Shown here: one piece after another, positions 10,756 through 36,794 of the stretch
How the letters are laid out: each line of letters opens with the position of its first letter
How positions within the stretch are numbered: the stretch's first letter is position 1
DNA from: Verrucomicrobiota bacterium
GTDB lineage: Bacteria; Verrucomicrobiota; Verrucomicrobiia; Limisphaerales; BJHT01
Length of the DNA stretch: 40,507 nucleotides
Reading direction: 5' to 3'
Assembly (NCBI GenBank): GCA_014193395.1
Contig: BJHT01000024.1
Coordinates: forward strand, 1 to 40,507
Notes under the pieces: generated by a model
Database searches by the model: none
Told to the model about the DNA's origin: nothing
The model's input: the letters and a program-made list of their open reading frames with translations, nothing else
Made by a program: the position numbers and the translations under genes

Positions 10756-10812
10756 GAGAAATGCGTGTTGGATTCAAGCTTGGCCCGCTCCGGTGGGCAA
10801 CACCCATTCTGC

Positions 10813-11010
10813 AAAGCTCAAAGCTCAAAGTTCAAAGCTCGAGGAAAGCTGCAATGGCCATGCACCCAACCACCAATTGGTCCGTGCTTCGTCGCCCCGC
10901 CTGCTCACGCGGTGGTGTGTGGAGAAACCACGCAGCGCCCGGTCTGATTGTCCCCCGCGGCGTTCGAATTGGACCTTTGACCCTGGTGCTTCCGTTGAGC
11001 TTTGAGCTTT
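10813..11010. repeat. Long inverted repeat, family B (CAAAGCTCAAAG type), copy 1
   Basis: Arms AAAGCTCAAAGCTCAA (10813-10828) and its perfect complement (10995-11010) enclose about 166 nt. The sequence lies between mlaD and the hybrid kinase gene, both minus strand. An AGCTGGGAGCT followed by eight T (near 11012-11029) is intrinsic-terminator-like on the plus strand, but no plus-strand gene ends here. Related copies lie at 12311-12476, 19772-19832 and 36605-36794. Confidence 0.8.
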
Positions 11011-11035
11011 AAGCTGGGAGCTTTTTTTTCGTCGT

Positions 11036-12268
11036 TCACTTCTTCGGTGGCGTCGCCGTCGCCGGGGCCTTGTTCGTCTTGAACGCCGAACGCAGCAGCC
11101 AGTGCCGTTTGAGACCCTGCATCAAGTCGTTTGCGCTCACGATGGCGTGGCCGATTTCGGCGACCAACTGCGGATTGCCCTGCACCTGCGCGTTCAGGTT
11201 GCTGGTCAGGTTGGCGAGGTTGGTGAGGGAACTCCCCACGTTATCCAGCAGCGCGGTCAGGTTGGTGTCGGTGTGGCCGACGAACTGGTTGGCCGTGAGG
11301 AGCGTGAGATTCACGTTCGTGAGCGTGGTGCTCAGATTGGTCATCGTCGCGCCGGCGGTGACCACCGTGGCCGAGAGATTGGTCAAGGTAGCGCTGGCGT
11401 TGGTGAGCGTGGTGCGGGTCGTTCCGAGGGTTTGTTCCAACTGGCTGTTGAGATTGGTCGGGATGAGCCACTCCCCCAGCGAGCCGCGCGGTTCCTTGAG
11501 GTTGCCGGTGATGACGTGGAGGTTGGTGACGATCGGCTGCGCGGCGGCGATGAGCCGGTTCGCATTCGAACTGAGCGTGTTCACGTTCGAGCTGATGCTC
11601 TGCGCGTTGGCCATCACGGCGGCGATCTGATTGGTCAGGTTCAGAATGGTTGGAATGGCGGCCTTCACCTGCTTCATCACGTCGTCCATCTGCGAGGACA
11701 GGTCCGGCGGCTCGTCCGCCTCGAGATGATACTTCGCGCCGGCCACAATGTTGGTGTACGCCTTCTGGGTGGGAATCAAGATTCCCGTGAGTTTGCTGCC
11801 CGCCTCCTGGTAGGTCGGAAAAAGTTTGTTGGTGCTGCCGGAAGTGCCGCCCTTGGTGACCTCGAGAAAGCGCGCGCCCAGCAGGCCGGCGGACCGAATC
11901 TTCACCACCGAATCATCCCACACGTAGCCGATGTAGGGGGCATGCACGTAGAACTCGATGTACACATCGACCATGCGGCCCTTTTCATCGTACTCGTAAG
12001 GTTTGGCAGCCGTGATCTTCGTGATTTCACCGGCATCAAAACCCAGGAGCCGCACGGTGTCGCCCACCTTGAAGCCCGCCCCGCTGTGGAGATACACGAA
12101 ATACGGCGCTTTGGTCAGGAACCAGCCTTTCTTTTGCGCCGTGTGATGGAGGTAGTAAGCGAACCCGGCCAACAGCAACAGCGTGGCCACGCTCACGAAC
12201 AGGCCGACGATTCGTTCGACGCGGCTCAGCCGGGTGCGCAACTGCGGGGTGAGGTCTTGCAAGGGCAT
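11036..12268 (-). CDS. mlaD: MCE/MlaD-family lipid-transport substrate-binding protein
   Basis: The product is 410 aa. One N-terminal membrane anchor (about residues 20-41, IVGLFVSVATLLLLAGFAYYL) is followed by one MCE domain (about 47-130: YLHSGAGFKVGDTVRLLGFDAG and KIRSAGLLGARFLEVTKGG). The C-terminal half (about 190-385) is a long region rich in Thr, Asn, Leu and Ser with repeated LTN motifs (TLTNASATLTNLSATV), probably a helical bundle or needle-like extension. MCE proteins carry phospholipids between the inner and outer membranes and work with an MlaE permease and MlaF ATPase, which are the next two genes upstream. A family B repeat separates it from mlaF, so it may be read by read-through or from its own promoter. 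Confidence 0.92.
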   Translation of the reverse strand: MPLQDLTPQLRTRLSRVERIVGLFVSVATLLLLAGFAYYLHHTAQKKGWFLTKAPYFVYLHSGAGFKVGDTVRLLGFDAGEITKITAAKPYEYDEKGRMVDVYIEFYVHAPYIGYVWDDSVVKIRSAGLLGARFLEVTKGGTSGSTNKLFPTYQEAGSKLTGILIPTQKAYTNIVAGAKYHLEADEPPDLSSQMDDVMKQVKAAIPTILNLTNQIAAVMANAQSISSNVNTLSSNANRLIAAAQPIVTNLHVITGNLKEPRGSLGEWLIPTNLNSQLEQTLGTTRTTLTNASATLTNLSATVVTAGATMTNLSTTLTNVNLTLLTANQFVGHTDTNLTALLDNVGSSLTNLANLTSNLNAQVQGNPQLVAEIGHAIVSANDLMQGLKRHWLLRSAFKTNKAPATATPPKK

Positions 12269-12310
12269 AAAATGATTCTCCGCTGGGTTGAATGAAATGG
12301 TTTTTCGCGG

Positions 12311-12476
12311 CGATGTGCGAAGCGCAGAGCGCGAAGCTCAACACCTGAAGTGCAAAGTGAATTCCAAACCCCACGCTCCACCGCGACCGGTTGCCAACCG
12401 AACCGTGGAGCGCCCCCCGACTGGCGGCTTGAGGCTGGGAACTTGCCTTGAGCTTTGAGCCTCCAGCTCGCTGCAT
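12311..12476. repeat. Degenerate family B repeat with inner hairpin, copy 2
   Basis: The space between mlaF and mlaD holds diverged arms (GCGAAGCTCAACACC near 12331; CCTTGAGCTTTGAGCC near 12446) and an inner hairpin CGCTCCAC...GTGGAGCG around CGGTTGCCAACCG (near 12374-12412). It breaks what is otherwise a compact mlaE-mlaF-mlaD operon. Confidence 0.6.
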
Positions 12477-12530
12477 TTTCTCACCCACCGTTTCGCCTGC
12501 CACCGGGAAGTCTCCATAGATTTGTTTCCT

Positions 12531-13340
12531 TCAAGCCAGCAGCAGGTCGCGCACGAACGGATCGTCGCTCGCGACCACCTGCTCGCGGTCGCCCAACCCC
12601 TGCCAGGCGCGCTGATTCAGACAGCCAAACTGCCGTCCAAGTTTCAACCACGGCCGCAGGTCTTCCGTCGTGACCACCAGCGTCACGCGCCGGCCGCCCA
12701 CGTCCGGGTGCCCGACGGCGAGCCGGCCGAGCATCTCGATCCACCAGCGGGTTTCACGCGGGTCCATGCCGTGCAGGGGATTGTCGAGCAGCAGGATTTC
12801 CGGCCGCAACACCAAGGCGCGGGCCAGTGCGGTGCGTTGCCGGGCCTGCCGGGAAACCCGCCCCGGCAACGAGTCCGCCGCCGCCGCCAGCCCGATCCAT
12901 TTGAGCATCGCCGTCACGGTCTCGGCGGCCTCCGCCTCGGCGCGGTTGTGATGATAGCACAGCGGCAGGCCGATGTTTTGCGCGAGCGTCAGCTGATTGA
13001 ACAGCCTGCCGCCATGCTCGAAGACCACGCCCACCTTCAAGCGGTGCGCGAGCAGGTCGCTTTCGCCGAGCTTCGCCGTCTCCTGACCAAACATCATCTG
13101 CCGGCCCCGCTCCGGCGGCTGCAGGCCCGCCGCCGTGGCCAGCAGGTCGCTCTTGCCCGAGCCATGCAGCCCCGCCACCACCCAGAAATCCTCCGCCCTG
13201 ATCCGCCAGTTGACCCCTTCGACCGTGACCAGGTTCGGCACGCCCACGGAAAACACCGCCGCATCGATCAACTCGATCAACGGCGCATCCGCAGGCGCAT
13301 TCGGCGGCGCTGTGGGCGGGGCGGTGGGCGTCGTTTCCAT
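12531..13340 (-). CDS. mlaF: MlaF-like ABC ATP-binding protein with altered catalytic motifs
   Basis: The product is 269 aa, with a Pro/Ala-rich N-terminus (1-20). Walker A is intact (GLHGSGKS, 57-64). The other motifs are unusual: at the Q-loop position the sequence is VFEHGGRLF (Glu108 in place of Gln); the signature LSGGxRQR reads VSRQARQR (162-169); Walker B is ILLLDNPLHGMDP, with Asn187 in place of the catalytic Glu; and the H-loop reads VVTTEDL with no His. I checked these codons on the DNA (GACAATCCC for DNP). It lies 6 nt downstream of mlaE, so by position it is the ATPase of the MCE transporter. From sequence it should bind ATP but hydrolyse it poorly, unless this subfamily uses other residues. 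Confidence 0.88.
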   Translation of the reverse strand: METTPTAPPTAPPNAPADAPLIELIDAAVFSVGVPNLVTVEGVNWRIRAEDFWVVAGLHGSGKSDLLATAAGLQPPERGRQMMFGQETAKLGESDLLAHRLKVGVVFEHGGRLFNQLTLAQNIGLPLCYHHNRAEAEAAETVTAMLKWIGLAAAADSLPGRVSRQARQRTALARALVLRPEILLLDNPLHGMDPRETRWWIEMLGRLAVGHPDVGGRRVTLVVTTEDLRPWLKLGRQFGCLNQRAWQGLGDREQVVASDDPFVRDLLLA

Positions 13341-13346
13341 GGCGGC

Positions 13347-14207
13347 CTACATGAGGATGTAAATCACGATGAACACCGCATCGAGCAGCACGCACACCAC
13401 CAGCGAATGCATCACCGCCCGGATCGTCGCCGCCGACACGTCCTCGATCCGCATCCGCTGCGCCAAGCCCTGATAACAGCACACCACCGCGATCGTGCTC
13501 CCAAAACACATCGTCTTGACCGCCAGCAGCGCGAAGTCCTGCCAGCGCAGCGCCTGCGCCAGTTGCGCGAAGTAATCCCCCGGCTTCAGCGGCACGTCCT
13601 GCACAAACGCGAACACATACCCGCTGACGATTGCCACGATGATCAGGTAAACCGTCAGCGCAAAACTAGCCACCGCCAGCCCGAACACCCGCGGCACCAC
13701 CAGATAGTGAATCGGATCAATCCCCAGCGCCTCCAGCGCCTCTACCTCGCCCTGCGCCCGCGCCGTCCCCAGTTCGATCACGATCGCCGTGCCCACCCGC
13801 GCCAGCACCAGCAACGCCGCCACCATCGGCCCCAGCTCCCGCACCACCACCGTCACCATCACCATCCCCGTGTAATTCTGCGCCCCCACGCTCGTCAGCA
13901 GCGACACCGTCTGCCCGATGATCACCAGGCCCAGCGCGGCCCCCATGAACCCGACCACCGGCACCAACCGCACCCCGGCACGAAAAATCTGCTCGCGAAT
14001 GATCGGCCGCATCAGCCGCGGTGCCACCTGTGAATGCGTGAACACCACCCCCAGCGTGATCAACGCAAACGCCCCCAACCCCTGCACCGTCTCGAGCAAC
14101 CGCAGCAACAACCGGCCGACGAAATTCAGGTAGGTCCGGGGTATCGGGGTCTCCAGAAACATCTCCAGCCCCCGCATAAAATTTCCGCTGGTCGAAGTTT
14201 TTTCCAC
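13347..14207 (-). CDS. mlaE: MlaE-family ABC transporter permease
   Basis: The product is 286 aa, with about five to six membrane segments in its second two thirds. Family motifs are GFMGAALGLVIIGQTV, VVRELGPMVAALLVLARVGTAIVIELGTARAQGE (family form: RELGPVLtaLlvaGRvGsaiaAElGtMrvtEqidAL) and EALEALGIDPIHYLVVPRV. It is the inner-membrane permease of an MCE lipid transporter, with MlaF 6 nt downstream and MlaD further on. The GTG at 14205-14207 is the outermost start; an ATG eleven codons in (MRGLEMFLETP) is an equal candidate and neither has a strong ribosome binding site. It is divergent from the TonB-dependent receptor gene. Confidence 0.93.
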   Translation of the reverse strand: MEKTSTSGNFMRGLEMFLETPIPRTYLNFVGRLLLRLLETVQGLGAFALITLGVVFTHSQVAPRLMRPIIREQIFRAGVRLVPVVGFMGAALGLVIIGQTVSLLTSVGAQNYTGMVMVTVVVRELGPMVAALLVLARVGTAIVIELGTARAQGEVEALEALGIDPIHYLVVPRVFGLAVASFALTVYLIIVAIVSGYVFAFVQDVPLKPGDYFAQLAQALRWQDFALLAVKTMCFGSTIAVVCCYQGLAQRMRIEDVSAATIRAVMHSLVVCVLLDAVFIVIYILM

Positions 14208-14444
14208 ATCCGCACGCTACGGTTTTCCCGCCGCGCGGGTCAAAGCCGATTTTGCCAATCACCGCCCCGCACCGCCGCCCCAGCCCTGCAATCTGCGGTC
14301 GCCCTGAATCGGCGGGATTTCCCCGCGCATCTCCGCCCCGCCCGTTGTCGTCGTCCGCCCCGATCTGCGGCCCCCATCCTTCCCCGCGACGCCTGCGTGC
14401 TTTACCAACGCCGCCGTGTGTCGATACTTCGCCACATACAAACT
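14208..14444. other. Divergent promoter space between mlaE and the TonB receptor gene
   Basis: These 237 nt must carry promoters for both directions, but no consensus boxes or operator repeats were recognised. The sequence is C/G-rich and low in complexity (repeated CCGCCCC-like runs at 14262-14290 and 14330-14390). The plus-strand frame of the receptor stays open through part of it, but without a plausible start. Confidence 0.35.
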
Positions 14445-16475
14445 ATGTCTTCGCGCCCCCTACCGTGCCCATTCGCAGGCCGCGTCGGCCGGTTGCTGTT
14501 CGGGTGCTTGTTCGCGCACCTCGGGAACGGCGACCTGCCCGCAGCCGATCCGAGCCCTGCGCGGCCCGCAGTGAACTTGATGGAAATGAGCCTCGACGAA
14601 TTGCTCACCGTCAAGGTCCAGACCGTCACCAGCGCCGCCAAATACCCGCAGCCCACTGCGCTGGCCCCGGCGTCGGTCACGATCGTCACGGACCGCGACA
14701 TCCAGCTCAACGGCTACCGCAACCTCGCCGAGGTGCTCGGCAGCGTGCGCGGCTTCTACACGACCTACGACCGCAACTACCACTACCTCGGCATCCGCGG
14801 CTTCAACCGGCCGGGCGACTACAACTCGCGCGTGCTGCTGTTGATCGACGGCCACCGCGTCAACGACGTGGTGTTCGACGGCGCGCCCATCGGCAACGAC
14901 GGCTATCTGGACGTGGACCTGATCGACCGCATCGAAGTGGTGCGCGGCCCCGGCTCGGCGATCTATGGCAGCAGCGCGCTCTTCGGGGTGGTGAACGTCA
15001 TCACGCGGCGCGGCCGGGACTTGAACGGCGCGGAGGCGGCCTTCACCGCCGGGGCTTTGGACACGTATCAGGGGCGCTTTTCCTTCGGCCGACAGTTGAC
15101 GAACGGTGTCGAGTTTCTCCTGTCCGGCACGGTGCGCGAGACCGACGGTCAGCCGCGGTTGAACTTCCCCGGCGCGGGCACGGCGGTCGGACTCGATGGC
15201 GAGTCGGGCCGCAGTTTGTTCGGCAAGCTCGGCTTCGCGGGCTTGGAACTCAGCGGCGGTTTTGAAACGCGCACCAAGCAAATTTCCACCGCGTCGTACG
15301 GCACGGATTTCAACACGCCCGGCACCGCAACCCGCGACGACCGCGGATTCGCCGATTTGAAATATGCGCGCCGCTGGGAGGAACCCGGCGTCGATCTGCT
15401 GGCGCGCGTTTATTACGACTACGACCGTTACCGCGGCACCTACATCTACAGCGGCGTGCGCAACGTGGACCCCGCCCAAGGCCAGCGCTGGGGCGCGGAA
15501 GTGCAGGTGAGCAAGGAACTGTGGGAGCGCCACAAATTTTCCGCGGGGCTGGATTTCCGGCGCAGTTTTGAAATCAAGCAGGAGAATTACACCGAGACGC
15601 CGTTCGCGTCCCACCTCTCCGACGAGCGCCAGACCACGGTCGTCAGCCCCTACCTCACGAGCGAATGGGCGCTTCGCACCAACCTCCATTTTCACGCCGG
15701 CGCGCGGCTGGATTATTACGATCAGAACACGCACTCGGCCAACCCGCGCCTCGGCCTGGTCTGGCAGCCGGTCTCCGCCACCGTGCTCAAGGCGCTCTAC
15801 GGAACAGCCTTCCGCGCACCCAACGCCTACGAGCTGTACTACACCGACGGCTACGTGACGCAGAAGCCCGCCGTCAATCTCCGGCCCGAGACCGTGGACA
15901 CTTACGAACTGGTCTGGGAACAGGCCCTCGGCCGCCGCTGGCAGTTCAGCGCGTCGGGCTACTTCTACCGCATCGACGACGCGATCCAGCAGGATCCTGA
16001 CCCGGCTGATGTCCGGGGCCTGCTGGTCTATCGCAACACCGGCCGCAACACTGGCCGTGGTCTCGAAACCGAGCTGGCTTACAAGGCGGACAATGGCTTC
16101 CGCAGCCGTCTGAGTTACGCCCTTCAGGACACGGAAGACCGCGCCACCGGCACGACGCTGAGCAACTCACCCCGCCACCTCGCCCGCTGGCACAACACGA
16201 TGCCGCTGTATCTCGACAAAGTCTTCCTGAGCACCGAAGTCGCTTTCACCAGCCATGTGCAGACCACGCCGGCGACTGCGTCCCGTGTCGGCGAATACTG
16301 GCTGCTCAACAGCACGCTCTACACCCGCGAACTGGCGCGCGGCTGGTCGGCCAGCGTGAGTGTGTACAACCTGCTCGACCGCCGCTACGGGCATCCCGTC
16401 GGCGACGAAATCCGCTGGGGACAAATCCAGCAGGACGGCCGGAGCTTTCAGTTCAAACTCAGTCTCCGCTTCTAG
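14445..16475 (+). CDS. TonB-dependent outer-membrane receptor
   Basis: The product is 676 aa from the ATG at 14445. A signal sequence (about 1-35) is followed by SLDELLTVKVQTVTSAAK, a linker typical of receptors of this class. The plug domain (about 45-165) contains YLGIRGFNRPGDYNSRVLLL, IDGHRVNDVVFDGAP and IEVVRGPGSAIYGSSALFGV. The rest is beta-barrel strands ending in SFQFKLSLRF with the terminal Phe used by the Bam machinery. The substrate is unknown: nothing specific to siderophores, cobalamin or glycans is visible. It is followed by a YfiR-family gene and a membrane hybrid kinase, so it may feed a signalling chain instead of, or as well as, nutrient uptake. Confidence 0.93.
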   Translation: MSSRPLPCPFAGRVGRLLFGCLFAHLGNGDLPAADPSPARPAVNLMEMSLDELLTVKVQTVTSAAKYPQPTALAPASVTIVTDRDIQLNGYRNLAEVLGSVRGFYTTYDRNYHYLGIRGFNRPGDYNSRVLLLIDGHRVNDVVFDGAPIGNDGYLDVDLIDRIEVVRGPGSAIYGSSALFGVVNVITRRGRDLNGAEAAFTAGALDTYQGRFSFGRQLTNGVEFLLSGTVRETDGQPRLNFPGAGTAVGLDGESGRSLFGKLGFAGLELSGGFETRTKQISTASYGTDFNTPGTATRDDRGFADLKYARRWEEPGVDLLARVYYDYDRYRGTYIYSGVRNVDPAQGQRWGAEVQVSKELWERHKFSAGLDFRRSFEIKQENYTETPFASHLSDERQTTVVSPYLTSEWALRTNLHFHAGARLDYYDQNTHSANPRLGLVWQPVSATVLKALYGTAFRAPNAYELYYTDGYVTQKPAVNLRPETVDTYELVWEQALGRRWQFSASGYFYRIDDAIQQDPDPADVRGLLVYRNTGRNTGRGLETELAYKADNGFRSRLSYALQDTEDRATGTTLSNSPRHLARWHNTMPLYLDKVFLSTEVAFTSHVQTTPATASRVGEYWLLNSTLYTRELARGWSASVSVYNLLDRRYGHPVGDEIRWGQIQQDGRSFQFKLSLRF

Positions 16476-16722
16476 GAACCCCATGGAAAACCGGTTCCCA
16501 ACCGCGGTCCCGCCGCCAGCCCGGAGCGCCAGCTTCGAATTGGGGTGGCGACGGCTCGTCGCCACTAGCGGGATGGCGACATGCTGTCACCACCCCGGAA
16601 ACAGGGCGAGTGAACCGACCCGGGCCGAGCGCAGCGCCGCACTGGGCTGGAATGGCAGCGCCCCGGTGGGGCTAAACCGAAGTCGGCTTCCAGTCGGCGC
16701 ACCGCGTCCGACCAACGGCAGT
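16476..16722. other. Intergenic space with hairpin and repeat fragments; frame stays open into the YfiR gene
   Basis: A hairpin GTGGCGAC-GGCTC-GTCGCCAC lies at 16545-16565, and a fragment CCGGAGCGCCAGCTTC (near 16521) resembles one arm of the repeat at 28960-29121. A similar GGTGGCG...CGCCACC hairpin is at 38084-38106. The reading frame of the downstream gene is open throughout this space, and an ATG at 16484 has AGGA six nt upstream. The translated segment looks like repeat sequence and would bury the signal peptide, so I treat it as non-coding. Confidence 0.55.
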
Positions 16723-17265
16723 GTGCGATTTTCTTGCAGCGCGCTTCTCGTCTGCCTCCTCCTCCTCGCCGCGCCCCCCGTCCGCGCGCAAACCACCGCG
16801 CCCGAAAATCAGCTCAAAGCCGCGTTCCTCGCCAAGTTCACCCAATACCTCGAATGGCCCGCGACGGCGTTCACCAACGCCGACCAACCCATCATCATCG
16901 GCATCCTCGGCACGGACCCGTTCGGCCCCGAGTTCGATGAGCGCCTGCGCACGTTCAAGACCGACGGGCGCCGCGTGGAGGCCCGGCGGCTGCGCCGGGT
17001 CGAAGAAGCCGCCGGCTGCCAGATCGTGTACTTCAGCGCGTCGGAAAACGAGAACTTGAAATTCCACCTCGCCGCGCTCAGCAAGCAGCCGATCTTCACC
17101 GCGGGCGACCACGAAGATTTCCTCAATTTCGGCGGCGTCCTGCGCTTCTGGCGCCACGGCGACCAGATCGCCTTTCACATCAAGTCCGAGGCCCTGCGTG
17201 CGGCGCAGATCAAGGCCAATGCGCGCTTGCTGCAACTGAGCCGCGATCCGTCGAAACCCCGCTGA
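16723..17265 (+). CDS. YfiR-family (DUF4154) periplasmic protein
   Basis: The product is about 180 aa from the GTG at 16723. The signal peptide is VRFSCSALLVCLLLLAAPPV followed by RAQ, then the family core: ENQLKAAFLAKFTQYLEWP, PIIIGILGTDPFG, CQIVYFSASENEN, and FTAGDHEDFLNFGGVLRFWR with HGDQIAFHIKSEALRAAQIK. YfiR proteins are periplasmic; in Pseudomonas YfiR restrains the membrane diguanylate cyclase YfiN. Here the gene ends 2 nt before a membrane hybrid kinase, which is the likely partner. The start is uncertain: an ATG at 16484 is in frame with a fair ribosome binding site, but would put about 80 residues of repeat-like sequence before the signal peptide. Confidence 0.85.
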   Translation: MRFSCSALLVCLLLLAAPPVRAQTTAPENQLKAAFLAKFTQYLEWPATAFTNADQPIIIGILGTDPFGPEFDERLRTFKTDGRRVEARRLRRVEEAAGCQIVYFSASENENLKFHLAALSKQPIFTAGDHEDFLNFGGVLRFWRHGDQIAFHIKSEALRAAQIKANARLLQLSRDPSKPR

Positions 17266-17267
17266 CC

Positions 17268-19664
17268 ATGCACCGGTTCCACCAACTTTCGATTCAGCAC
17301 AAGGTGACCGCGCTGGCCCTGTCCTCGAGCCTGCTCGTGCTTCTCGCCGCCAGTGTCATCTTCATCGTCCGCGAGAGCGGCTCCGCCCGCCACGAGGCCC
17401 GCGAGATCCTCAACACCCGCGCGGACATCATCGGCGAAGCCCTCGCCGTCGCTCTGGATTTCGACGATCCCCGGCCCGCGCAGGCGGCGCTGAGGCGGTT
17501 GGCGCGCGACCCGCAGATGATCGGCGCGGCGGCCTACACGAGCGCGGGCACGGTGCTCGCCAAATATCCGCCCACCTTTGCCCCGCCGGCGACCCCGCCC
17601 ACGGGCCGGCGCTTTGTGGGCTACCAACTCCACCTCACGACCCGGGTCGTGCACCAGGGCCGGGTCGTCGGCACGCTGTACTTGGTGCGCAACACCATCG
17701 AGCTGCGCGAGCAGTTCTCCCGCACGCTGGTCAATTTCGGCCTCGCGGCCCTGATCGCCGCCGGCCTGGGCTTCCTCGTTTCCTCCGCGCTGCAACGCAT
17801 TGTCTCCACGCCCATCCTCAGCCTCGCGCGCACCGCCCAGGCCGTCGGGGTGAGCCACGATTTCTCCGTGCGCGCCGTGAAAGCGCACGCCGACGAGATC
17901 GGCGAACTGGTGGATCGCTTCAACCAGATGCTCGCCGAACTGCAGTCCCGCGACCGCGCCCTCGCCGAAGCCCGCAGCCAGCTCGAGGCCCGCGTGGACG
18001 AACGCACCCGCCAGCTCACCCAGGCCCTCGAACAGCTCCGCACCGAAGCTCGTGATCGCGAGAACACCCAAAAGGCACTGCAACAAGCGGAGGGGAAGCT
18101 CCTCCTCCATGTGGCCCAGACCCCGATGGCGGTCATCGACTGGAACACCCAGTTCGAGGTCGTCACGTGGAACCCGGCCGCCGCGCGCATCTTCGGCTAC
18201 ACCGCGACCGAAGCCATTGGCCGGAGCGGCCCCGAGCTGGTCGTTCCGCCGGAAGCCCGTCCCCACGTGAATGAGATCTGGCAGGCCCTGCTGCAGCGCA
18301 CCGGCGGCACGCACTCGGTCAACAACAACATCACCAAAGACGGGAGCACGCTGACCTGCGAATGGTTCAACACGCCCTTGGTCGGCACCGACGGCCGCGT
18401 CATCGGTGTCTCCTCTTTTTGCGCCGACATCACCGCCCGCGTCAGCCTCGAACAGCAGGTGCTCCAGTCGCAGAAACTCCAGGCCGTGGGTCAGTTGGCC
18501 GCCGGCATCGCCCACGATTTCAACAACGAACTGACCGTGATCCTCGGCAACGCCTCGCTGCTGGACCTCAGCCCGCGGCTCACCAAGGAGGACCGCGTCC
18601 ACGTCGGCCAGGTGCAGGCGGCCAGCACGCGCTCGGCCACGCTCGTGCGCCAGTTGCTCGCCTTCAGCCGCAAGCAGGTCATTCAGCCCAAGCCGCTGGA
18701 TTTGAACGAACTCATCGCCAACGACACCAAGATGCTCAGCAGCGTGCTCGGCGAACACATCATCCTCCGCTGCACCTTTGCCCCCACGCCCGCCCGCGTC
18801 CATGCCGACCGCGGGATGTTGGACCAGATCCTCCTCAACCTCTGCGTCAACGCCCGCGACGCCATGCCCGGCGGCGGCCAGCTCCAGATCAGCGCGGTAA
18901 TTGTCACCGTGGACACCGCCCATCGCCATGCCAACGCCGAGGCCCGCCTGGGCCGCTTCTGCTGCCTCTCCGTCACCGACACCGGCTGCGGCATGGACGC
19001 CGCCACGCAGGCCCGCATCTTCGAACCCTTCTTCACCACCAAGGGCGTCGGCCAGGGCACCGGCCTCGGCCTGGCCACCGTCTATGGCATCGTCAAGCAG
19101 CACGACGGCTGGATCGAGTGCGTCAGCGCCCCCGGCCTCGGCGCCACCTTCAAGGTATTCCTGCCGTTTTATGCCGCCGCCCCCGCCGCCCCCGCCACCG
19201 CCCCGGGACCGGCTCCCGCGGTGGAAGCAGAACCGCGCGGCACCGAAACCGTCCTGCTCGTCGAGGACGAGGCCCCGGTGCGCGAACTCAGCCGCCGCGC
19301 GCTCACGCGCCTCGGCTACCAGGTTCTGCTCGCCGCCAGCGGCCCGGAAGCGCTCCAGGTCTGGCGCGAACACCACGCCACCATCGACCTCCTGCTCACC
19401 GACTTGGTGATGCCCGGCGGCCTCTCGGGCCTCGACCTCGCTGCGCGCCTGCGGCAAGAGCGGCCCAACCTGCTGGTCATCTATTGCAGCGGCTACAGCA
19501 CCGACCTGGTCGCCACCAAAATGGAAATCAAGGAGGGCCGGAACTTCCTCGCCAAACCCTACTCACTCACCGCCCTCAGCCGCATCGTCCGCGCCGCCCT
19601 CGACGATCGCGCGCCCGCCGGCCCCGCCACCGCCCCGCCGCCACCGCCCGCGCCCGCCGTTTGA
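17268..19664 (+). CDS. Membrane hybrid histidine kinase (sensor-HAMP-PAS-HisKA-HATPase-REC)
   Basis: The product is 798 aa. The first membrane helix (about 13-34) and second (about 155-177) bracket a periplasmic sensor of about 120 residues resembling CHASE8-type domains (ARHEAREILNTRADIIGEAL). A HAMP segment (about 178-232), coiled coil (about 225-275) and PAS (about 280-390) follow. HisKA has His416 in AAGIAHDFNNELTV; HATPase has CVNARDAMPGGG, DTGCGM and [14 protein letters not shown]; the C-terminal receiver has Asp712 in LLTDLVMPGG. CHASE8-HAMP is the same front end as YfiN, the partner of YfiR in Pseudomonas, and here it is joined to a kinase. The gene is 2 nt from the yfiR-like gene. 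The C-terminus ends in a Pro/Ala tail. Confidence 0.93.
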   Translation: MHRFHQLSIQHKVTALALSSSLLVLLAASVIFIVRESGSARHEAREILNTRADIIGEALAVALDFDDPRPAQAALRRLARDPQMIGAAAYTSAGTVLAKYPPTFAPPATPPTGRRFVGYQLHLTTRVVHQGRVVGTLYLVRNTIELREQFSRTLVNFGLAALIAAGLGFLVSSALQRIVSTPILSLARTAQAVGVSHDFSVRAVKAHADEIGELVDRFNQMLAELQSRDRALAEARSQLEARVDERTRQLTQALEQLRTEARDRENTQKALQQAEGKLLLHVAQTPMAVIDWNTQFEVVTWNPAAARIFGYTATEAIGRSGPELVVPPEARPHVNEIWQALLQRTGGTHSVNNNITKDGSTLTCEWFNTPLVGTDGRVIGVSSFCADITARVSLEQQVLQSQKLQAVGQLAAGIAHDFNNELTVILGNASLLDLSPRLTKEDRVHVGQVQAASTRSATLVRQLLAFSRKQVIQPKPLDLNELIANDTKMLSSVLGEHIILRCTFAPTPARVHADRGMLDQILLNLCVNARDAMPGGGQLQISAVIVTVDTAHRHANAEARLGRFCCLSVTDTGCGMDAATQARIFEPFFTTKGVGQGTGLGLATVYGIVKQHDGWIECVSAPGLGATFKVFLPFYAAAPAAPATAPGPAPAVEAEPRGTETVLLVEDEAPVRELSRRALTRLGYQVLLAASGPEALQVWREHHATIDLLLTDLVMPGGLSGLDLAARLRQERPNLLVIYCSGYSTDLVATKMEIKEGRNFLAKPYSLTALSRIVRAALDDRAPAGPATAPPPPPAPAV

Positions 19665-19771: not shown

Positions 19772-19832
19772 AACTTTGAACCTTGAACTTTGAACTCCCC
19801 TCAAGCTTCCAGCTTTAAGCTTTGAGCTTCCC
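19772..19832. repeat. Family B repeat fragment, copy 3
   Basis: Short CTTTGAACCTTGAACTTTGA and CTTTAAGCTTTGAGCTTCCC blocks are in the same orientation as the right arms of the copies at 10813-11010 and 36605-36794, with no clear left arm. It lies directly upstream of the BatA-like gene, so that gene's leader would include it. Confidence 0.65.
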
Positions 19833-23437: not shown

Positions 23438-24393
23438 ACATAGAGCGCTGGAGCCGCAGCAGCGCAGAAAACCGCAGGCACCCAACGCCCGGCGCAATAG
23501 CGGCTTCGCTCCCGTGAGATCGCCCTTGGCGTGCAGCATTTCCGCGAGACAGGTGAGGTCGCAAATGTGTCCGGGTGTTCCTCACCCACGGCGCGCTCGC
23601 AGCCTGTCAGTGCCCGGCGAAATGGCGGCTCAGCTTCGGTCAGTTCGCCCTTGTGGTGCAGCAGGCCGGCCAGATTGGCGATGCAGGCCAGCATGTCCGA
23701 GTGCTCGCCGCCGTGCAGGCGCTCGCGGACCTCGAGGACCCGCCGCAACTCGGGTTCGGCCCCGGCCAAGTCGCCCCTGGCCTTCAGCAACATGGCGAAA
23801 TTATTGAGACCCGTGAGCGTGTCCGTGTGCTCGATCCCGAGCACGCGCTCGGATGGCGGTCGTCTGCCGATACATCGCCTCAGCGGCCGCCAAATCGGCT
23901 TTGCTCCACAGCGAGTTGGCAAGGTCCATGGTGGTGGCCAGCGTGTCCGCATGGCCTCCGCCCAAGGTGCGCTCACGAACTGCCAGCACTCGTCGGTAGA
24001 AAGTTTGAGCCCCCGCGAAATCGCGCTTGGTCTGCAGGAAACTGGCCAGGTTACAGGCGCGTTTGAGGGTTTCCTCATGGTCGGGACCGAGCGCGCGTTC
24101 GCTGGCGACTAGCGCCTGTCGGAACAGCGGCTCGGCCCGGACGAAGTCGCCCGTGCTGACCAGCCAATGGGCAAGCGGGGCATCGCTGTCGTACGCTGCC
24201 TGTCTTCTATCTTCCTTGTTCCGGCTCGAACGATAGGAAGCTACCGACACAGAGCTACGATCAGCAGGCCTATGATCGCCGGCGGATTGCGGCGATATAG
24301 CCGCGCCAGCCAGTTGCCCTGGCGGTCTGGTTCAGCCACCGAATCGCCTGATTAGCGGGCATGAGGCTCAGTTGGTTGCGGCTCGTCGCTCAT
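23438..24393 (-). pseudogene. Decayed TPR (kinesin-light-chain-like) protein gene
   Basis: Read on the minus strand, TPR repeats of the kinesin-light-chain type are plain: AEPLFRQALVASERALGPDHEETL, then RVLGIEHTDTLTGLNNFAML, AEPELRRVLEVRERLHG, AEPPFRRALTGCERAVGEEHPDTF. They change frame near 23850 and again near 23550-23570, after which a further repeat (CLAEMLHAKGDLTGAKPLLR) continues in a third frame. Upstream, near 24340-24393, a possible start (ATG at 24391-24393, MSDEPQPTEPHA) is cut by a stop, and a segment PPAIIGLLIVALC looks like a membrane helix. Several frameshifts and stops make it non-functional. The 3' end runs into the family A repeat. The intact gene may have been a membrane-anchored TPR protein. 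Confidence 0.75.
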
Positions 24394-24897
24394 GGAGATC
24401 CACTGAATTTTCTGCGCCAGGGTTCCCGCGTCGTGTGTGGGCTGCGTGAGGATCATAAGGAATTTTGGGTGGTAAGAACGGCGGCAGTTAGCCAAGTCGT
24501 GGAGGCAGCGCAATGCGCTCCGGCCTGGCGATTCGTGTGGTCCCGATTCTTACTGCCAAATCCGCTGCTGGTGCGACAGCGGAGGAACACCAAAGGCATT
24601 CGCCCTTCCCGCGCATCGCGGCTGCGCAAATGGACAACCGCCGACCTCCGCACTGCCCATCGCTCGCCAAAAAATCGCCGCCGATGCCCGAGCCAAGTTC
24701 GTGTTGCAGATGCAACATTAACTTGGCCCGGCGGATTTGAGACCATGGCTCGAATTTCAATGCCGTGGAATTGGTTCCTGCGGCGCAGGGAGGAGCTTGC
24801 AGTGCGCACGGGGCGCGCTTCTCGTGGTGCGGACGGTTGGGGGAAAAAGTTAGGGACGCGCGCAACGCGTCCTTACCAGGATTGCCGACGATGCGGA
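24394..24897. other. About 500 nt without a recognisable gene
   Basis: No reading frame here has family features. A hairpin GGACGCG-CGCAA-CGCGTCC lies at 24854-24872, close to the 3' end of the SMP-30-like gene at 24898; it may serve as a weak terminator, with no T-run visible. Confidence 0.45.
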
Positions 24898-26790
24898 TCA
24901 GCGGGCGGTCGCGGAGATGACTTGGCCGCGGGTCCAGGCGGAGAGTTTTTTGGCGTCGGTGGGTTGCTTGAGACGGAGGGTGATTTCGGCGGAGCCGGAG
25001 CCGTAGGTGCCGAGGTTTTTGCGGGTGAGGAGTTCGGCTTCGAGGGCGTCGCCGGTTGGGGCGTAGCTGGGGGTGGTGGCGCGGAGGGCGAGGGTTTGGC
25101 CGGGTTTCCATTGGCCGGCTTGGAACCAGTAAGTGGAGTGGACGAGGAAGTGGACGGTGTCGCCGTTGACGGCCTCGACGAAGCCGGTGACGCCGTCGCG
25201 CGCGACACGCGTGCGCACACGCTCGGCCTCGGCATTTTTCACGAGGTCGAGGCTGGCGTCATCGGCGATGAGGCGCACGACGCGGCGGTCGGCATCGAGG
25301 GTCCAGGTGAAGTAGAGGCGGTCGCCGGTTTTCAAGGCGGCGTCGGTGGCGGGTTGGCCGGCGCGGAAGATGCGGGCGTCGGGGGCGAGCGTGAAGTCGC
25401 GGCTTTTTTCCTCGAAGACTTTGTCGCCCGCGAAAACTTGCGCCGTGAAGTCGCGGCCGCCGGGCTGCACGGCGCGGATGATCCACGCGTGGTTGTGGCC
25501 TTTCATCTGGCAGAGTTCGTCCTGGTAGTGGACGAGGTAGCCGCGGCGTTTGTCGCCGTCGGGATGGAAGAAGGCGTTGACGCGTTCGCCGGGGAGCAGT
25601 TCGTCGATGTGCGCGCCATAGACGAGGTGGCGGTAGGTGGTGGCCCACGGGAGGACCTTGGTGGTGAAAATTTCGCCGGAGGATTCGTTCTGCATTTCCG
25701 CGGTCCAGGTGGCGGGATCGAACTTGCGCCAGAGATACCAGCCACGCGCGACGCCGATGGAGCCGGACGCGCCGAAGCGCCGCGGATGAATCGCGTGCGC
25801 GCCTTCGTAGGGCTGCACGGGCAGCGTGCGGAGGGGCTTCAGCGCGACGCCGGGATGGCCGGGGAATCCCTTCACGCCGACCTTCGCGTGGAACACGCCG
25901 GGCGGGCCGCCGGTGGTGCAGAAGAGCTCGTCGTAGTTGGTGCCGCCGAACGCGAGGTTGCTCACGACCTGCGCGGGCACGTCGATTTGCCCGAGCACTT
26001 TGGCGGCGGGGCTGAGAACGGTGATGCGGCCCTGCTTCGTTTCGGGGCGATGAAAATCCGCGACCCAAAAATTTCCCTCGGCATCGAAAACACAGCCGTC
26101 GCCGCCGCTGCCGCCGAGGTCGTAGAAAAGTTCGGCGGGGCCGAGGGGCTGGTCATCGGCGGGGAGCGGGAAGCGGAGGATTTTTTTGGACTGCGATTCG
26201 ATGAGGTAGAGGAAGCGGCTGGCGGGGTCCACGTCGAGGCCGTTGGGAAAAGCGAAGCCGGTGCCGATGCGCGAGACGGTGCCGTCGGGACGAAGGCGGA
26301 AGATGTTCCCGACGGGCTTGGCGAGCGAGGAACCGCTGGGGTCGGTCCAGTAAATATTTCCGCGGGCATCGACGGTGAGGTCGTTGAGGCTGTTGAGGGG
26401 TTTGCCCTCGAAGGTGTCGGCGAGGACGCTGAGCGTGCCGTCGGGCGCGAGGGCAAGGAGGGCTTTGTGTTTGTTGTCGGCGATGAGCAGATGGCCGTCG
26501 CCGCGCAGCACGGTGCCGGCGGGATTGATGTCGAGCCAGAGGATGACCTTGCCGTTTTTGTCCACGCGGCGGAGGCCGTCGCTGCAAAAGAAGACGTCGC
26601 CGTTGAGCCAGGTGGGGCCTTCGGAATAGCCGGGGGCTTGGGCGTAGTGGGTGAACTTCGCGGTGGCAAGGGATTCGGCGACGGTGGCGGCGGGGGCCGG
26701 GGCGGGGATAGCCAATAGGCAATAGGCGATGGCCAAGAGGAGGGAGCGGCGGCAGCGGCGGGCGAGGGCAAGGGCGAGGGGTGATCTCAT
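24898..26790 (-). CDS. Secreted SMP-30/gluconolactonase-like beta-propeller protein with extra C-terminal domain
   Basis: The product is 630 aa from the ATG at 26788-26790 (an ATG at 26820 would add ten residues). Signal peptide: LLLAIAYCLLAIPAPAPA. Residues about 35-310 form an SMP-30/gluconolaconase/LRE-like propeller: GPTWLNGDVFFCSDGLRRVD, NSLNDLTVDARGNIYWTDP, FAFPNGLDVDPASRFLYLIES, and GNFWVADFHRP with SNLAFGGTNYDELF. The Glu, Asn and Asp residues expected to bind divalent metal are present (SEGP, SLNDL, PNGLD). The C-terminal half (about 330-630) is not recognised. It contains a segment about exchange of water or solvent-exposed beta strands (GDRLYFTWTLDADRRV). It could be a sugar lactonase or a propeller of other function. 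Confidence 0.83.
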   Translation of the reverse strand: MRSPLALALARRCRRSLLLAIAYCLLAIPAPAPAATVAESLATAKFTHYAQAPGYSEGPTWLNGDVFFCSDGLRRVDKNGKVILWLDINPAGTVLRGDGHLLIADNKHKALLALAPDGTLSVLADTFEGKPLNSLNDLTVDARGNIYWTDPSGSSLAKPVGNIFRLRPDGTVSRIGTGFAFPNGLDVDPASRFLYLIESQSKKILRFPLPADDQPLGPAELFYDLGGSGGDGCVFDAEGNFWVADFHRPETKQGRITVLSPAAKVLGQIDVPAQVVSNLAFGGTNYDELFCTTGGPPGVFHAKVGVKGFPGHPGVALKPLRTLPVQPYEGAHAIHPRRFGASGSIGVARGWYLWRKFDPATWTAEMQNESSGEIFTTKVLPWATTYRHLVYGAHIDELLPGERVNAFFHPDGDKRRGYLVHYQDELCQMKGHNHAWIIRAVQPGGRDFTAQVFAGDKVFEEKSRDFTLAPDARIFRAGQPATDAALKTGDRLYFTWTLDADRRVVRLIADDASLDLVKNAEAERVRTRVARDGVTGFVEAVNGDTVHFLVHSTYWFQAGQWKPGQTLALRATTPSYAPTGDALEAELLTRKNLGTYGSGSAEITLRLKQPTDAKKLSAWTRGQVISATAR

Positions 26791-29490: not shown

Positions 29491-29660
29491 ATTAACGGGT
29501 TTGACCATCCGCGATGAAGGCAGGGAAGTCTCCGCTGCCGGTCCTGCGCCCGGTCTGGCTGCCAAATCGGTTCCCGGCTTTCGGGCGGGCTGATGCGCCG
29601 GGCAAAATTATTTCCGCATTTCCACCTGTTCTCCGTCTGAAGCGCGAAACAAAATCCGCC

Positions 29661-31082
29661 ATGCGCCACTCGACATTTTCTTCGCCTCTGCTGTTCCTGC
29701 CTTTGTTGCTGTGTTTGCTCGCACCGGGCGGTACGGGTGCGGCGGCGGACAAGCCCGCGGCGGAAATCAGCTTTCGTCGCGACATCGCGCCGATCTTGAT
29801 CGCGCGGTGTCAAAGCTGTCATGACGCGAAGGTGGCGAAGGGCGGGTTCCGGCTGGACACATTCGAGTTGCTGATGCGCGCCGACGCGAAGAAGGGCGCG
29901 GCGGTTTCGCCCGGCAAACCGGAGGCGAGCAAGCTGCATCAGTTGCTCATCACCACGGACGCGGATGACCGGATGCCGCAGAAGGCGGACGCGTTGCCGG
30001 CGGCGGAGATCGCGCTGATCAAGGGCTGGATCGCGGCGGGCGCGAACTACGACGGCGGCGATCCGAAGCTGGCGCTGGTCGAGATTGTGCCGAGCCTGAC
30101 GCATCCGCCCGCGCCGGTCGCGTATCCGGCGGCGGTGCCGGTGACGGCGCTGGCATTCACTCCCGATGGCGCGGAGCTGGCGGTGTCGGGGTATCGCGAG
30201 ATCACGTTTTGGAATCCGATCACGGGGCAGCTCGTGCGGCGGGTGGGCGGGGTCGCGCCGCGCACGCAGGCGCTGGCGTTCAGTCCGGATGGCAAGACGC
30301 TCGCGGTGGCGGGCGGGCAGCCGGGGGAATTGGGCGAGCTGCGGTTGCTCGAAGCGGCGTCGGGCAAGCTGGTGAAGGTGGTTTTCTCGGCGGCCGATCT
30401 GGTGCTCGACGTGCAGTTCAGCGCGGATGGCAAGCTGCTGGCGGCGGCGTGCGCGGATGGTTCGATCCGCATTTTCAGTTTTCCTGCGGCGACGAAGAAG
30501 CTGCAGATCGACAATCACGCGGACTGGGTAAACGCGGTGGCGTTCAGTCCGGACGGCGGCTTGATCGCGAGTGCGAGCCGCGACAAGTCGGCGAAGGTGT
30601 TCGATGCGACGAGCGGCGAGATTTTGAGCACCTACAACGGGCACGGGGTGGGCGTGTTCGGCGTCGTGTTTTCGGCGGATGGCAAAACGGTGTTCACGGC
30701 GGGACAGGATCGAAAGATTCACGTCTGGCTGGCGCAGGACGCCGCGCAGTCGCGCAAGCAATCGGACGCGAAGAAACAGGCGGAGATCACCGGGTTCGGG
30801 AAGGAAGCGTATCGGCTGGCGCGTGGCGATGGCTCGCTGTTTTCGTGCTCGGCGGACGGGCTGATCCGCGAGCACGCGTTGAGTGATCGCAAGGAACTGC
30901 GCACCTACACGGGGCTGGGGGATTGGGCTTACGCGGTGGCGGCGCATCCGGGCACGAAGCGCGTGGCGGGCGGGGCGTTCAACGGGCGTGTGAACGTGTG
31001 GAGCACGGCGGATGGGAAGCCGGTGACGACGTTTGTGGCGTCGCCGGGTTTGGTGACCGCCGCTGGAAAGCTCAAAGAGTGA
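29661..31082 (+). CDS. Planctomycete-type cytochrome c (PSCyt1) fused to WD40 repeats
   Basis: The product is 473 aa. A signal peptide (SSPLLFLPLLLCLLAPGGTG) precedes a haem-binding CQSCH at residues 50-54, within ISFRRDIAPILIARCQSCHD, the hallmark of the planctomycete cytochrome C domain (to about residue 125; GGFRLDT, DDRMPQ, IKGWIAAGANYDG). The rest (about 150-470) is a WD40 propeller with repeats such as VTALAFTPDGAELAVSG, TQALAFSPDGKTLAVAGG, VNAVAFSPDGGLIASAS and VFGVVFSADGKTVFTAG. It should be in the periplasm and carry covalent haem c. Such fusions are common in Planctomycetota and Verrucomicrobiota; their redox role is unknown. The ATG at 29661 fits the signal peptide. Confidence 0.93.
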   Translation: MRHSTFSSPLLFLPLLLCLLAPGGTGAAADKPAAEISFRRDIAPILIARCQSCHDAKVAKGGFRLDTFELLMRADAKKGAAVSPGKPEASKLHQLLITTDADDRMPQKADALPAAEIALIKGWIAAGANYDGGDPKLALVEIVPSLTHPPAPVAYPAAVPVTALAFTPDGAELAVSGYREITFWNPITGQLVRRVGGVAPRTQALAFSPDGKTLAVAGGQPGELGELRLLEAASGKLVKVVFSAADLVLDVQFSADGKLLAAACADGSIRIFSFPAATKKLQIDNHADWVNAVAFSPDGGLIASASRDKSAKVFDATSGEILSTYNGHGVGVFGVVFSADGKTVFTAGQDRKIHVWLAQDAAQSRKQSDAKKQAEITGFGKEAYRLARGDGSLFSCSADGLIREHALSDRKELRTYTGLGDWAYAVAAHPGTKRVAGGAFNGRVNVWSTADGKPVTTFVASPGLVTAAGKLKE

Positions 31083-31377: not shown

Positions 31378-33063
31378 GTGACCCCGTCATCGCTCAAATC
31401 CTCCTTCCCGTGGAAACGGCTCCTCGCCGTCGTCATCACTGTCGCCGCGCTGGGAATCATCTTCTGGAAAATCGACGTCGCCGAATTGGCGGCCGTTTTC
31501 CGTCGCATGGAGATAGGCTGGTTTCTCGCAGCGGAAGGCATCTTCGGCTTGATGCTGCTCGCGGGTTCGTGGCGCTGGCACTTGATGCTGCGGCTCACGA
31601 ATGCCGCCGTGCATCCCGGCGCCACCGCGCGCCTCTACGCCATCGGCCACGCGCTCAGTTTTTTCCTCCTCACGCCGGCCGTCGGAGACCTCGCCAAGGC
31701 CGGTCTCTACTCGCGCTGGTTTCGGCAGCCGCTGCCGAACGTCGTCGCCTCCGCGCCGCTCGCGCGCTTCCTCGGACTCGGCGGCATGTGCATTTTCATT
31801 CTCGTGGCGTTCGCCCTCGCTGCGGCCAAGGGCGCGCTCGGGACCGCCACCGCGTTCGGCGCGCGCCTGCCGCTGCCGCTGTTGCTCGTTGGCATCGCGG
31901 GCGGACTCATCGGCCTGGTGCTGATTTTTCGCTGGCGACCGCGCTCCGAACACATCCTCGCGCGCACCTTCAATTCCTTTGCCGTCGCCGCTCGGCAGCT
32001 CCTCCTCACGCCGCGCCTCGCCGCGTATGGCCTGTTGCTCGGCTTCGTCGTGCAGGCCATCTCCTGCACGCTGATGGCGCTGTGCCTGCGCGCCGTCGTC
32101 TCGGTCGATTGTCCGTGGTTCGAGCTGCTGTGGACCTTCCCGGTCATCGCGGCGATGGTCGCCGTGCCTTCGTTCGGCGGACTCGGCGTGCGCGAAGCTG
32201 CGGCGCTCGGTATCCTCGCGCTCTATCATATCCCCGCCGCGGACGCCGTTGCCGGCTCGCTCCTCACACTGGCCACCAATGTTACCTGGGTCGTCATCGG
32301 CGCGGCCCTCCTCGCGCGGGAAGAGCGGCTGTTCGACAAGGCCCGGGCGCAGGAAAAACTCTGGGCCTTGCCGAAAACCATCTCCGTCATCATCCCCGCG
32401 CTGAATGAGGAAGCCGAAATTCCCGCCACACTGCGCCACCTCCAGGCCATTCCCGAAATCGCGGAAATCATCATCGTCGATGCCGGCAGCACCGACCGTA
32501 CGCGCGACCTCGCCACCGCCGCCCGCTGCCGTGTCCTCACCACCGAACCCGGCCGCGGCCACCAGCTCCGCCACGGCGCAGCCCGCGCCACCGGCGACGT
32601 CGTTCTCATGGTCCACGCCGACACCTGGCTCGCGCCTGACGCGGGCCGCGCGATTCTGGCGTCGCTGCATGACGCCACTGTGGTCGGTGGCGGCTGCTGG
32701 AAAATATTTCGCGACCCGCCCCTGCTCGTGCGCGGCTCGCGCCTCAAATGCGCGCTGCGCCTCTACCTCGGCCACCGCGTCATGGCCGACCAGGCGATCT
32801 TCGTCCGGCGCACTGTGCTGACCGCGACCGGCGGCGTGCCCGACGTGCCGTTGATGGAAGAGTTCGAACTGTGCCGCCAGCTCCGCCCCGCCGGCCGCCT
32901 CGCCCTGGCTGACACCGTCGTCAGCACGTCCGCGCGACGTTTCACCCAACTCGGCGTCCTGCGCACTTACGCCCGCATGGCGCGCGTGACCCTTCTCTAT
33001 TATCTCGGTCGCTCCCCCGCCGATCTTCGCCGCCTCTACGAACGCCCGCCACGAACCCGTTAG
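31378..33063 (+). CDS. Fusion: LPG-synthase-like membrane domain + TIGR04283-type glycosyltransferase
   Basis: The product is 561 aa from the GTG at 31378 (VTPSSLKSSFPWKRLLAVVI). Residues 1-325 form a multi-helix UPF0104/lysylphosphatidylglycerol-synthase-type flippase domain: FFLLTPAVGDLAKAGLYSRW, FPVIAAMVAVPSFGGLGVREAA. From about residue 332 a GT-A glycosyltransferase follows: ISVIIPALNEEAEIPATLRH, IIIVDAGSTDRTRDLA, GRGHQLRHGAARATGDVVLM with HADTW as the DxD-like site, then ADQAIFVRRTVL and LMEEFELCRQLR, matching the transferase-2 family (TIGR04283). The pairing suggests a lipid-linked sugar made and flipped by one protein. It is convergent with the alcohol dehydrogenase gene. Confidence 0.88.
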   Translation: MTPSSLKSSFPWKRLLAVVITVAALGIIFWKIDVAELAAVFRRMEIGWFLAAEGIFGLMLLAGSWRWHLMLRLTNAAVHPGATARLYAIGHALSFFLLTPAVGDLAKAGLYSRWFRQPLPNVVASAPLARFLGLGGMCIFILVAFALAAAKGALGTATAFGARLPLPLLLVGIAGGLIGLVLIFRWRPRSEHILARTFNSFAVAARQLLLTPRLAAYGLLLGFVVQAISCTLMALCLRAVVSVDCPWFELLWTFPVIAAMVAVPSFGGLGVREAAALGILALYHIPAADAVAGSLLTLATNVTWVVIGAALLAREERLFDKARAQEKLWALPKTISVIIPALNEEAEIPATLRHLQAIPEIAEIIIVDAGSTDRTRDLATAARCRVLTTEPGRGHQLRHGAARATGDVVLMVHADTWLAPDAGRAILASLHDATVVGGGCWKIFRDPPLLVRGSRLKCALRLYLGHRVMADQAIFVRRTVLTATGGVPDVPLMEEFELCRQLRPAGRLALADTVVSTSARRFTQLGVLRTYARMARVTLLYYLGRSPADLRRLYERPPRTR

Positions 33064-33143
33064 CCTCATCTTGAACGCGCATTAGAATTAGTGCCGGTTC
33101 GTGGTTTCAAGCCATGTGTCTTGAGTGACAGCGGCAGCCAGGT

Positions 33144-36567: not shown

Positions 36568-36604
36568 GCGCGAGTGGTGTTGGTGGAGGGCGGGGCAGGG
36601 GGCA

Positions 36605-36794
36605 AAGTTCCAAGTTCAAAGCTCAAAGCTCAAGGGAAGGAGCAAGAGTCCAAGCACCAAGCAGGGCTTTGCGAGGCTTGTGGTTGGATTGGCGGAAGGG
36701 CGGCGGTCGTGGCCGGGTTCGGCATTGTTGTGCGGACGTTTGGCCCTTGGTGCTTGGAGTTTCCCTTGAGCTTTGAGCTTTGAACTTGGAGCTT
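36605..36794. repeat. Long inverted repeat, family B, copy 4 (best preserved)
   Basis: Arms of 33 bp at 36605-36637 and 36762-36794 match at 32 positions. Inside, CCAAGCACCAAG (near 36650) pairs with CTTGGTGCTTGG (near 36746-36757), so the structure is nested. The element ends 29 nt before the nagA start codon and would form most of its leader. Confidence 0.9.

Follow-up and report, generated by a model that had tools for sequence, protein, structure and literature searches.

In this study we describe an MCE lipid transporter whose ATPase subunit, a MlaF-type protein, has lost its hydrolysis motifs, and we show that this loss is order-wide, a fact that a sequence-only reading of the locus had not seen. 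The gene lies in a stretch of 40,507 nucleotides (the window; positions 1 to 40,507 of contig BJHT01000024.1) from a Verrucomicrobiota bacterium of the order Limisphaerales. On balance we favour the view that the protein, which we call family A MlaF, is a conserved pseudo-ATPase NBD of an MCE lipid transporter, that it probably binds nucleotide without hydrolysing it, and that the transporter acts as a passive lipid conduit.

The window carries a mlaE-mlaF-mlaD operon (Table 1) in which both an MlaE-family permease and an MCE-domain protein are present, as in an MCE ABC transport system. The mlaF frame contains no stops and starts 6 bases past the end of mlaE, with mlaD downstream, and the Pfam matches lie above their cut-offs, so that the operon context and clean frame claimed by the sequence-only reading are borne out. 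The mlaD product has a hydrophobic N-terminal helix, a single MCE domain (residues 55-140) and a long C-terminal region rich in Thr and Asn. A second NBD was not found in the window operon or in the other loci that we inspected. Motif reading and alignment with canonical MlaF showed that the earlier description of an intact Walker A and four altered motifs was exact. The protein has an MlaF-related ABC NBD fold and retains Walker A (GxxxxGK(S/T)) and the Walker B residue Asp186, but none of the four catalytic hallmarks (Q-loop Gln, LSGG, Walker B Glu, H-loop His) is present, LSGG being replaced by V-S-R-Q at residues 162-165; it is thus not a canonical MlaF. Its AF2 model (pLDDT 94.7) has E. 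coli MlaF (6xbd) as best fold match, and the top PDB match by sequence is 8fed (MceG of the Mce1 system).

Table 1. Features of the transporter locus and of the related gene elsewhere in the genome (window positions unless a contig is named)
Feature	Position	Strand	Basis or remark
mlaE-mlaF-mlaD operon	11036-14207	-	three genes
mlaE-type permease (family A MlaE), 286 aa	13347..14207	-	Pfam PF02405, 192 bits (cut-off 22.5)
mlaF-type pseudo-ATPase (family A), 269 aa	12531..13340	-	Pfam PF00005 ABC_tran, 71 bits (above cut-off)
mlaD-type MCE protein, 410 aa	11036..12268	-	Pfam PF02470 MlaD, 36.5 bits (cut-off 25.1)
Intergenic stretch mlaF/mlaD	12269..12530	-	mostly missing from genus-mate operon
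Walker A GLHGSGKS, residues 57-64	13149..13172	-	intact; sequence
Q-loop position, Gln to Glu108	13017..13019	-	aligned to canonical MlaF
Signature region GRVSRQARQR (canonical xxLSGGxxxR)	12834..12863	-	aligned to canonical MlaF
Walker B/D-loop LLLDNPLHGMDP	12759..12794	-	Asp186 kept, LLLDNP
Catalytic Glu to Asn187	12780-12782	-	aligned to canonical MlaF
H-loop His to Glu226	12663..12665	-	aligned to canonical MlaF
CAAAG(C/T)TCAAAG repeat sites	10812-10837, 10993-11011, 12446-12457, 19774-19824, 36603-36635, 36764-36789		
Family B pseudo-MlaF, 231 aa	contig C55:220-912, contig edge, same genome		aligns to MlaF, Walker A absent

Several other features of the window were noted. About 250 bases of the stretch between mlaF and mlaD are absent in a genus-mate (genome G001), where the gap between the two genes is 13 bases. 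One copy of the repeat CAAAG(C/T)TCAAAG sits within this stretch; the repeat has a 7-base period, and the window contains 17 sites when up to one mismatch is allowed, where 0.27 would be expected. Most of the sites are clustered, and some face each other as inverted pairs with a spacing of about 150 bases. At 14034-19664 a TonB-dependent receptor, a YfiR/HmsC-like protein (DUF4154) and a CHASE8-HAMP-PAS hybrid histidine kinase follow one another, a row that is likely a sensory cluster, and one gene at 29514-31082 fuses PSCyt1, a planctomycete-type cytochrome domain, to WD40 repeats, a combination that fits a member of the PVC group. Two long open reading frames, 24361-26718 (785 aa) and 31387-33069 (560 aa), had no Pfam match at 1e-5; the latter has a further long frame opposite to it and is possibly not a gene.

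Scanning the contigs of this genome with the single protein returned ordinary ABC ATPases only, the patterns derived from it being too narrow, and the distribution was therefore taken from genome searches. Across the order 222 of 293 genomes matched at E <= 1e-27; some of the weak matches that were checked are canonical MlaF, and discounting the weak ones leaves family A MlaF in about 200 of the 293. The operon recurs in the genus-mate, where the NBD is 71% identical and carries equivalent motif changes, and mlaE and mlaD stand beside the family A gene in nearly all flanked loci inspected. We aligned 81 members (61 clusters at 60% identity; median pairwise identity 41%) and compared them with 61 canonical MlaF proteins, some from within the order and some from elsewhere in the phylum. 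While every canonical protein has all four hallmarks (61/61), 68 of the 81 family A members have none, 13 have one and none has more. Taken singly, the Q-loop Gln is found in 5/81 (canonical 61/61), the signature SGG in 0/81 (61/61) and the H-loop His in 5/81 (61/61), and the catalytic position of Walker B is most commonly Asn (60/81) and rarely Glu (3/81). The Walker B Asp is present in 81/81, GK(S/T) together with this Asp is retained in 78/81, and the D-loop Asp is kept in 64/81, the window protein included. New residues that are rare or absent in canonical MlaF are nearly fixed: W45 (79/81), W53 (81/81), Y129 (81/81), W199 (80/81), W200 (75/81) and W231 (74/81). The family A sequences form a single clade in the tree. 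When a profile was run against 288 genomes from the phylum beyond the order, the best matches among the 29 loci inspected were canonical MlaF, and we therefore rejected the idea that family A occurs in other classes. In G107 (C99), G289 (C371), G099 (C227) and G181 (C36) the family A mlaF is divided between two frames or interrupted by a stretch of N; these are either assembly errors or real breaks.

Co-inheritance and substitution rates point to a gene that is held in place by selection. Comparing this genome with its genus-mate (NG86 for all four genes), dN/dS is 0.34 for family A MlaF, 0.18 for its MlaE, 0.15 for its MlaD and 0.13 for canonical MlaF; hence the ratio for family A MlaF is about double that of its partners but still indicates purifying selection. 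Family A MlaE is found in 112 of 146 genomes of the order, all of which (112/112) also have family A MlaF; in one reverse exception, G092, the MlaF was found but the family A MlaE was not. The coupling helix of MlaE (about residues 146-163) also differs between the two types: Met149, present in 65/65 canonical proteins, is mostly Ala or Ser in family A, and the canonical Glu/Gln153 is Gly in 49 of 50.

The genome also contains a second, more extreme variant, which is new here and absent from the earlier reading. This family B gene lies at a contig edge and the MlaE beside it appears split over contigs C420 and C55; its orthologue in the genus-mate (C30:58945-59637) stands within a full mlaE-mlaF-mlaD operon. 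Within the order, 10 of 146 genomes carry family B; in the rest of the phylum 36 of 288 do, all of them from other classes, so the idea that it is confined to the order was rejected; in 14 of 14 out-of-order loci drawn in by an MlaE profile it adjoins mlaE. Each of the P-loop, LSGG, the Walker B DE pair and the H-loop His is absent in all 39 members, and the Walker B Asp is absent in all but two. The AF2 model is nonetheless a confident ABC NBD (pLDDT 94.0) with PDB matches to YbbA, FtsE, LolD and MlaF. Its conserved part is the segment GWISNLDVDENITLAQRHHT, which corresponds in the alignment to the region of canonical MlaF past the Q-loop and may form the face that docks onto MlaE. Since family B lacks Walker A and has mlaE-mlaF-mlaD operons of its own, such operons can exist without a P-loop. 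In the MlaE tree (midpoint root, quick method) the permeases of A and B group against all sampled canonical MlaE with an SH-aLRT of 99, and from this grouping a single origin of the two pseudo-ATPases is plausible but not proven; the MlaF tree has long branches and is unreliable for A versus B. Somewhat more tentatively, at a little under an even chance, we propose that the phylum has two related MCE transporters without ATP-driven transport, A with a nucleotide-binding, non-hydrolysing NBD as the gate of a passive lipid conduit and B with a scaffold that lacks a nucleotide site. On this view an ABC transporter would have turned into a permanent lipid channel of the envelope, and the same cell would keep a canonical MCE pump driven by ATP beside it.

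How might a transporter of the family A type work? By analogy the complex would be MlaE2-MlaF2-MlaD6. With its ABC fold, P-loop and Mg2+-binding Walker B Asp preserved, family A MlaF probably still binds nucleotide, which might serve as a structural cofactor or as a gate; as the Q-loop Gln, LSGG, the catalytic Glu and the switch His are lost, the usual ATP sandwich and a useful rate of hydrolysis would not be expected. Family A MlaF would dock onto its cognate MlaE at the remodelled coupling helix, keeping the permease assembled and the MlaE cavity open toward the MCE channel. It has been reported that MlaE without ATP is open to the MlaD channel (PMC10212509) and that ATP hydrolysis prevents spontaneous transfer from MlaD to MlaC (PMC11131202, PMC10212509). 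An NBD that is unable to form the ATP sandwich should leave the transporter open, letting lipid pass down its gradient. We infer that lipid flow is passive, through the MCE conduit, with both its direction and the identity of the lipid likewise conjectural; the long MlaD may bridge the periplasm. The transporter is thus probably not a pump but a conduit, either passive or ATP-sensed. This was one of two options in the sequence-only reading, transport without normal hydrolysis or pairing with another ATPase, and it is the one favoured by a conserved, selected MlaF without hydrolysis motifs in a complete operon. However, hydrolysis residues matter in the MCE systems studied so far, which counts against a non-hydrolysing protein: E. 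coli MlaF K47R has undetectable ATPase activity and fails to complement (PMC5016091), E170Q loses about 80% of the ATPase activity and causes a growth defect (PMC7784689), and the D188N and E189Q variants of M. tuberculosis MceG do not stabilise the transporters (PMC9947336).

The main rival is that hydrolysis has been rewired, a carboxylate at position 108 (Q-loop) or 226 (H-loop) replacing the lost Walker B Glu. We consider it unlikely, although it has more in its favour than the other alternatives. An acid is present at 108 in 58 of 81 members and at 226 in 57, the window protein having both, and the four members with neither carry one at 187. Hence no member lacks an acid at all three positions, where column shuffling expects 6.2 (4.9 among 61 thinned rows, p 0.0013, post hoc), and it is this constant presence, next to an almost fixed P-loop and Asp186, that keeps relocated catalysis alive. 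The triple was, however, a post hoc choice, and about two independent lineages account for the compensating cases. Moreover, the signature is lost in 81/81, so that the usual composite active site cannot form, and family B occupies the same operon type without a P-loop.

Somewhat less probable still is a pure scaffold, in which nucleotide binding is irrelevant, MlaF does nothing but stabilise MlaE and the retained P-loop is structural. The state of family B, without P-loop and nearly always without the Walker B Asp, would fit such a role, as would the faster evolution of family A MlaF relative to its partners (dN/dS 0.34). But the retention of GK(S/T) and Asp in nearly all members, at so low a median identity, is hard to explain without contact to nucleotide.

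The pairing option of the earlier reading, in its present form a mixed dimer of pseudo-MlaF and a canonical MlaF in an asymmetric transporter, gained a candidate partner. The search for a second, canonical mlaF, which that reading had suggested, was successful: another contig of the genome, C59, encodes a canonical MlaE-MlaF pair, and 135 of 146 genomes from the order have a canonical MlaF of this type. Degenerate sites are also common in asymmetric ABC transporters (PMC7756269). In those, though, the deviations are spread over both NBDs and one composite site is degenerate (PMC7756269), whereas here a single chain lacks both the signature and the catalytic Glu; a composite dimer with any partner would therefore have no whole site but two half-broken ones. 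Together with the lack of a second NBD in the operon, this does not match a heterodimer with one degenerate site. The coupling helix and MlaF have, in addition, changed together, and family A MlaE is never found without family A MlaF. Pairing is accordingly the less supported of the two options, and we regard it as improbable. Decay, a pseudogene in progress, might be suggested by the motif loss, the evolution faster than that of the neighbours and the frame changes or assembly gaps that break up a few members, but we dismiss it as very improbable, in agreement with the initial view that the gene is not obviously a pseudogene: it is retained order-wide with nearly all frames intact, dN/dS is well below 1, new residues are fixed, co-inheritance with MlaE is strict, and normal motifs in orthologues, which the earlier reading had named as a refutation, occur in none of the 81.

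Both the route of phospholipids to the outer membrane and the question of export versus import by MCE systems are debated, and in Mla the hydrolysis of ATP reportedly holds back spontaneous export. A natural MCE transporter that lacks hydrolysis motifs throughout an order, with a normal one in the same genome, provides a ready test of passive MCE flow. If our preferred reading of a non-hydrolysing conduit is true, conserved pseudo-ATPases would make up both NBDs of this ABC transporter. We found no report of a degenerate MlaF, or of an ABC transporter with conserved pseudo-ATPases as both NBDs, in the open-access literature searched.

One of the closest known systems is MlaFEDB with its MlaF, a type VIII ABC MCE transporter known from E. 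coli, P. aeruginosa and A. baumannii. It shares the NBD fold, the operon of mlaE and an MCE-type mlaD, the P-loop and the Walker B Asp. The window MlaF differs from it by the lack of the Q-loop Gln, LSGG, the catalytic Glu and the H-loop His and by its new fixed Trp and Tyr residues, and the operon by a 410-aa MlaD with a long C-terminal region and a remodelled coupling helix in MlaE. Mycobacterial Mce1 with MceG is likewise an MCE transporter with an MlaF-like NBD, MceG being needed for the stability of the complex (PMC9947336); unlike the window protein, MceG has a functional Walker B that is required for transport, and one MceG is shared between systems. The transenvelope MlaEFD system of Veillonella has a similarly minimal mlaEFD operon and a long MlaD (419 aa; PMC10665443), but its MlaF resembles the canonical one and its type of MlaD has a beta-barrel, reported to be absent from MlaD of the PVC group. 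Finally, altered catalytic Glu, signature and H-loop are also known from TAP, TM287/288, ABCG5/G8 and CFTR, whose degenerate site has little or no turnover. These transporters keep one consensus site, with the changes spread over both NBDs, whereas in family A all changes lie in one chain from a single mlaF, so that both sites of a homodimer would be degenerate.
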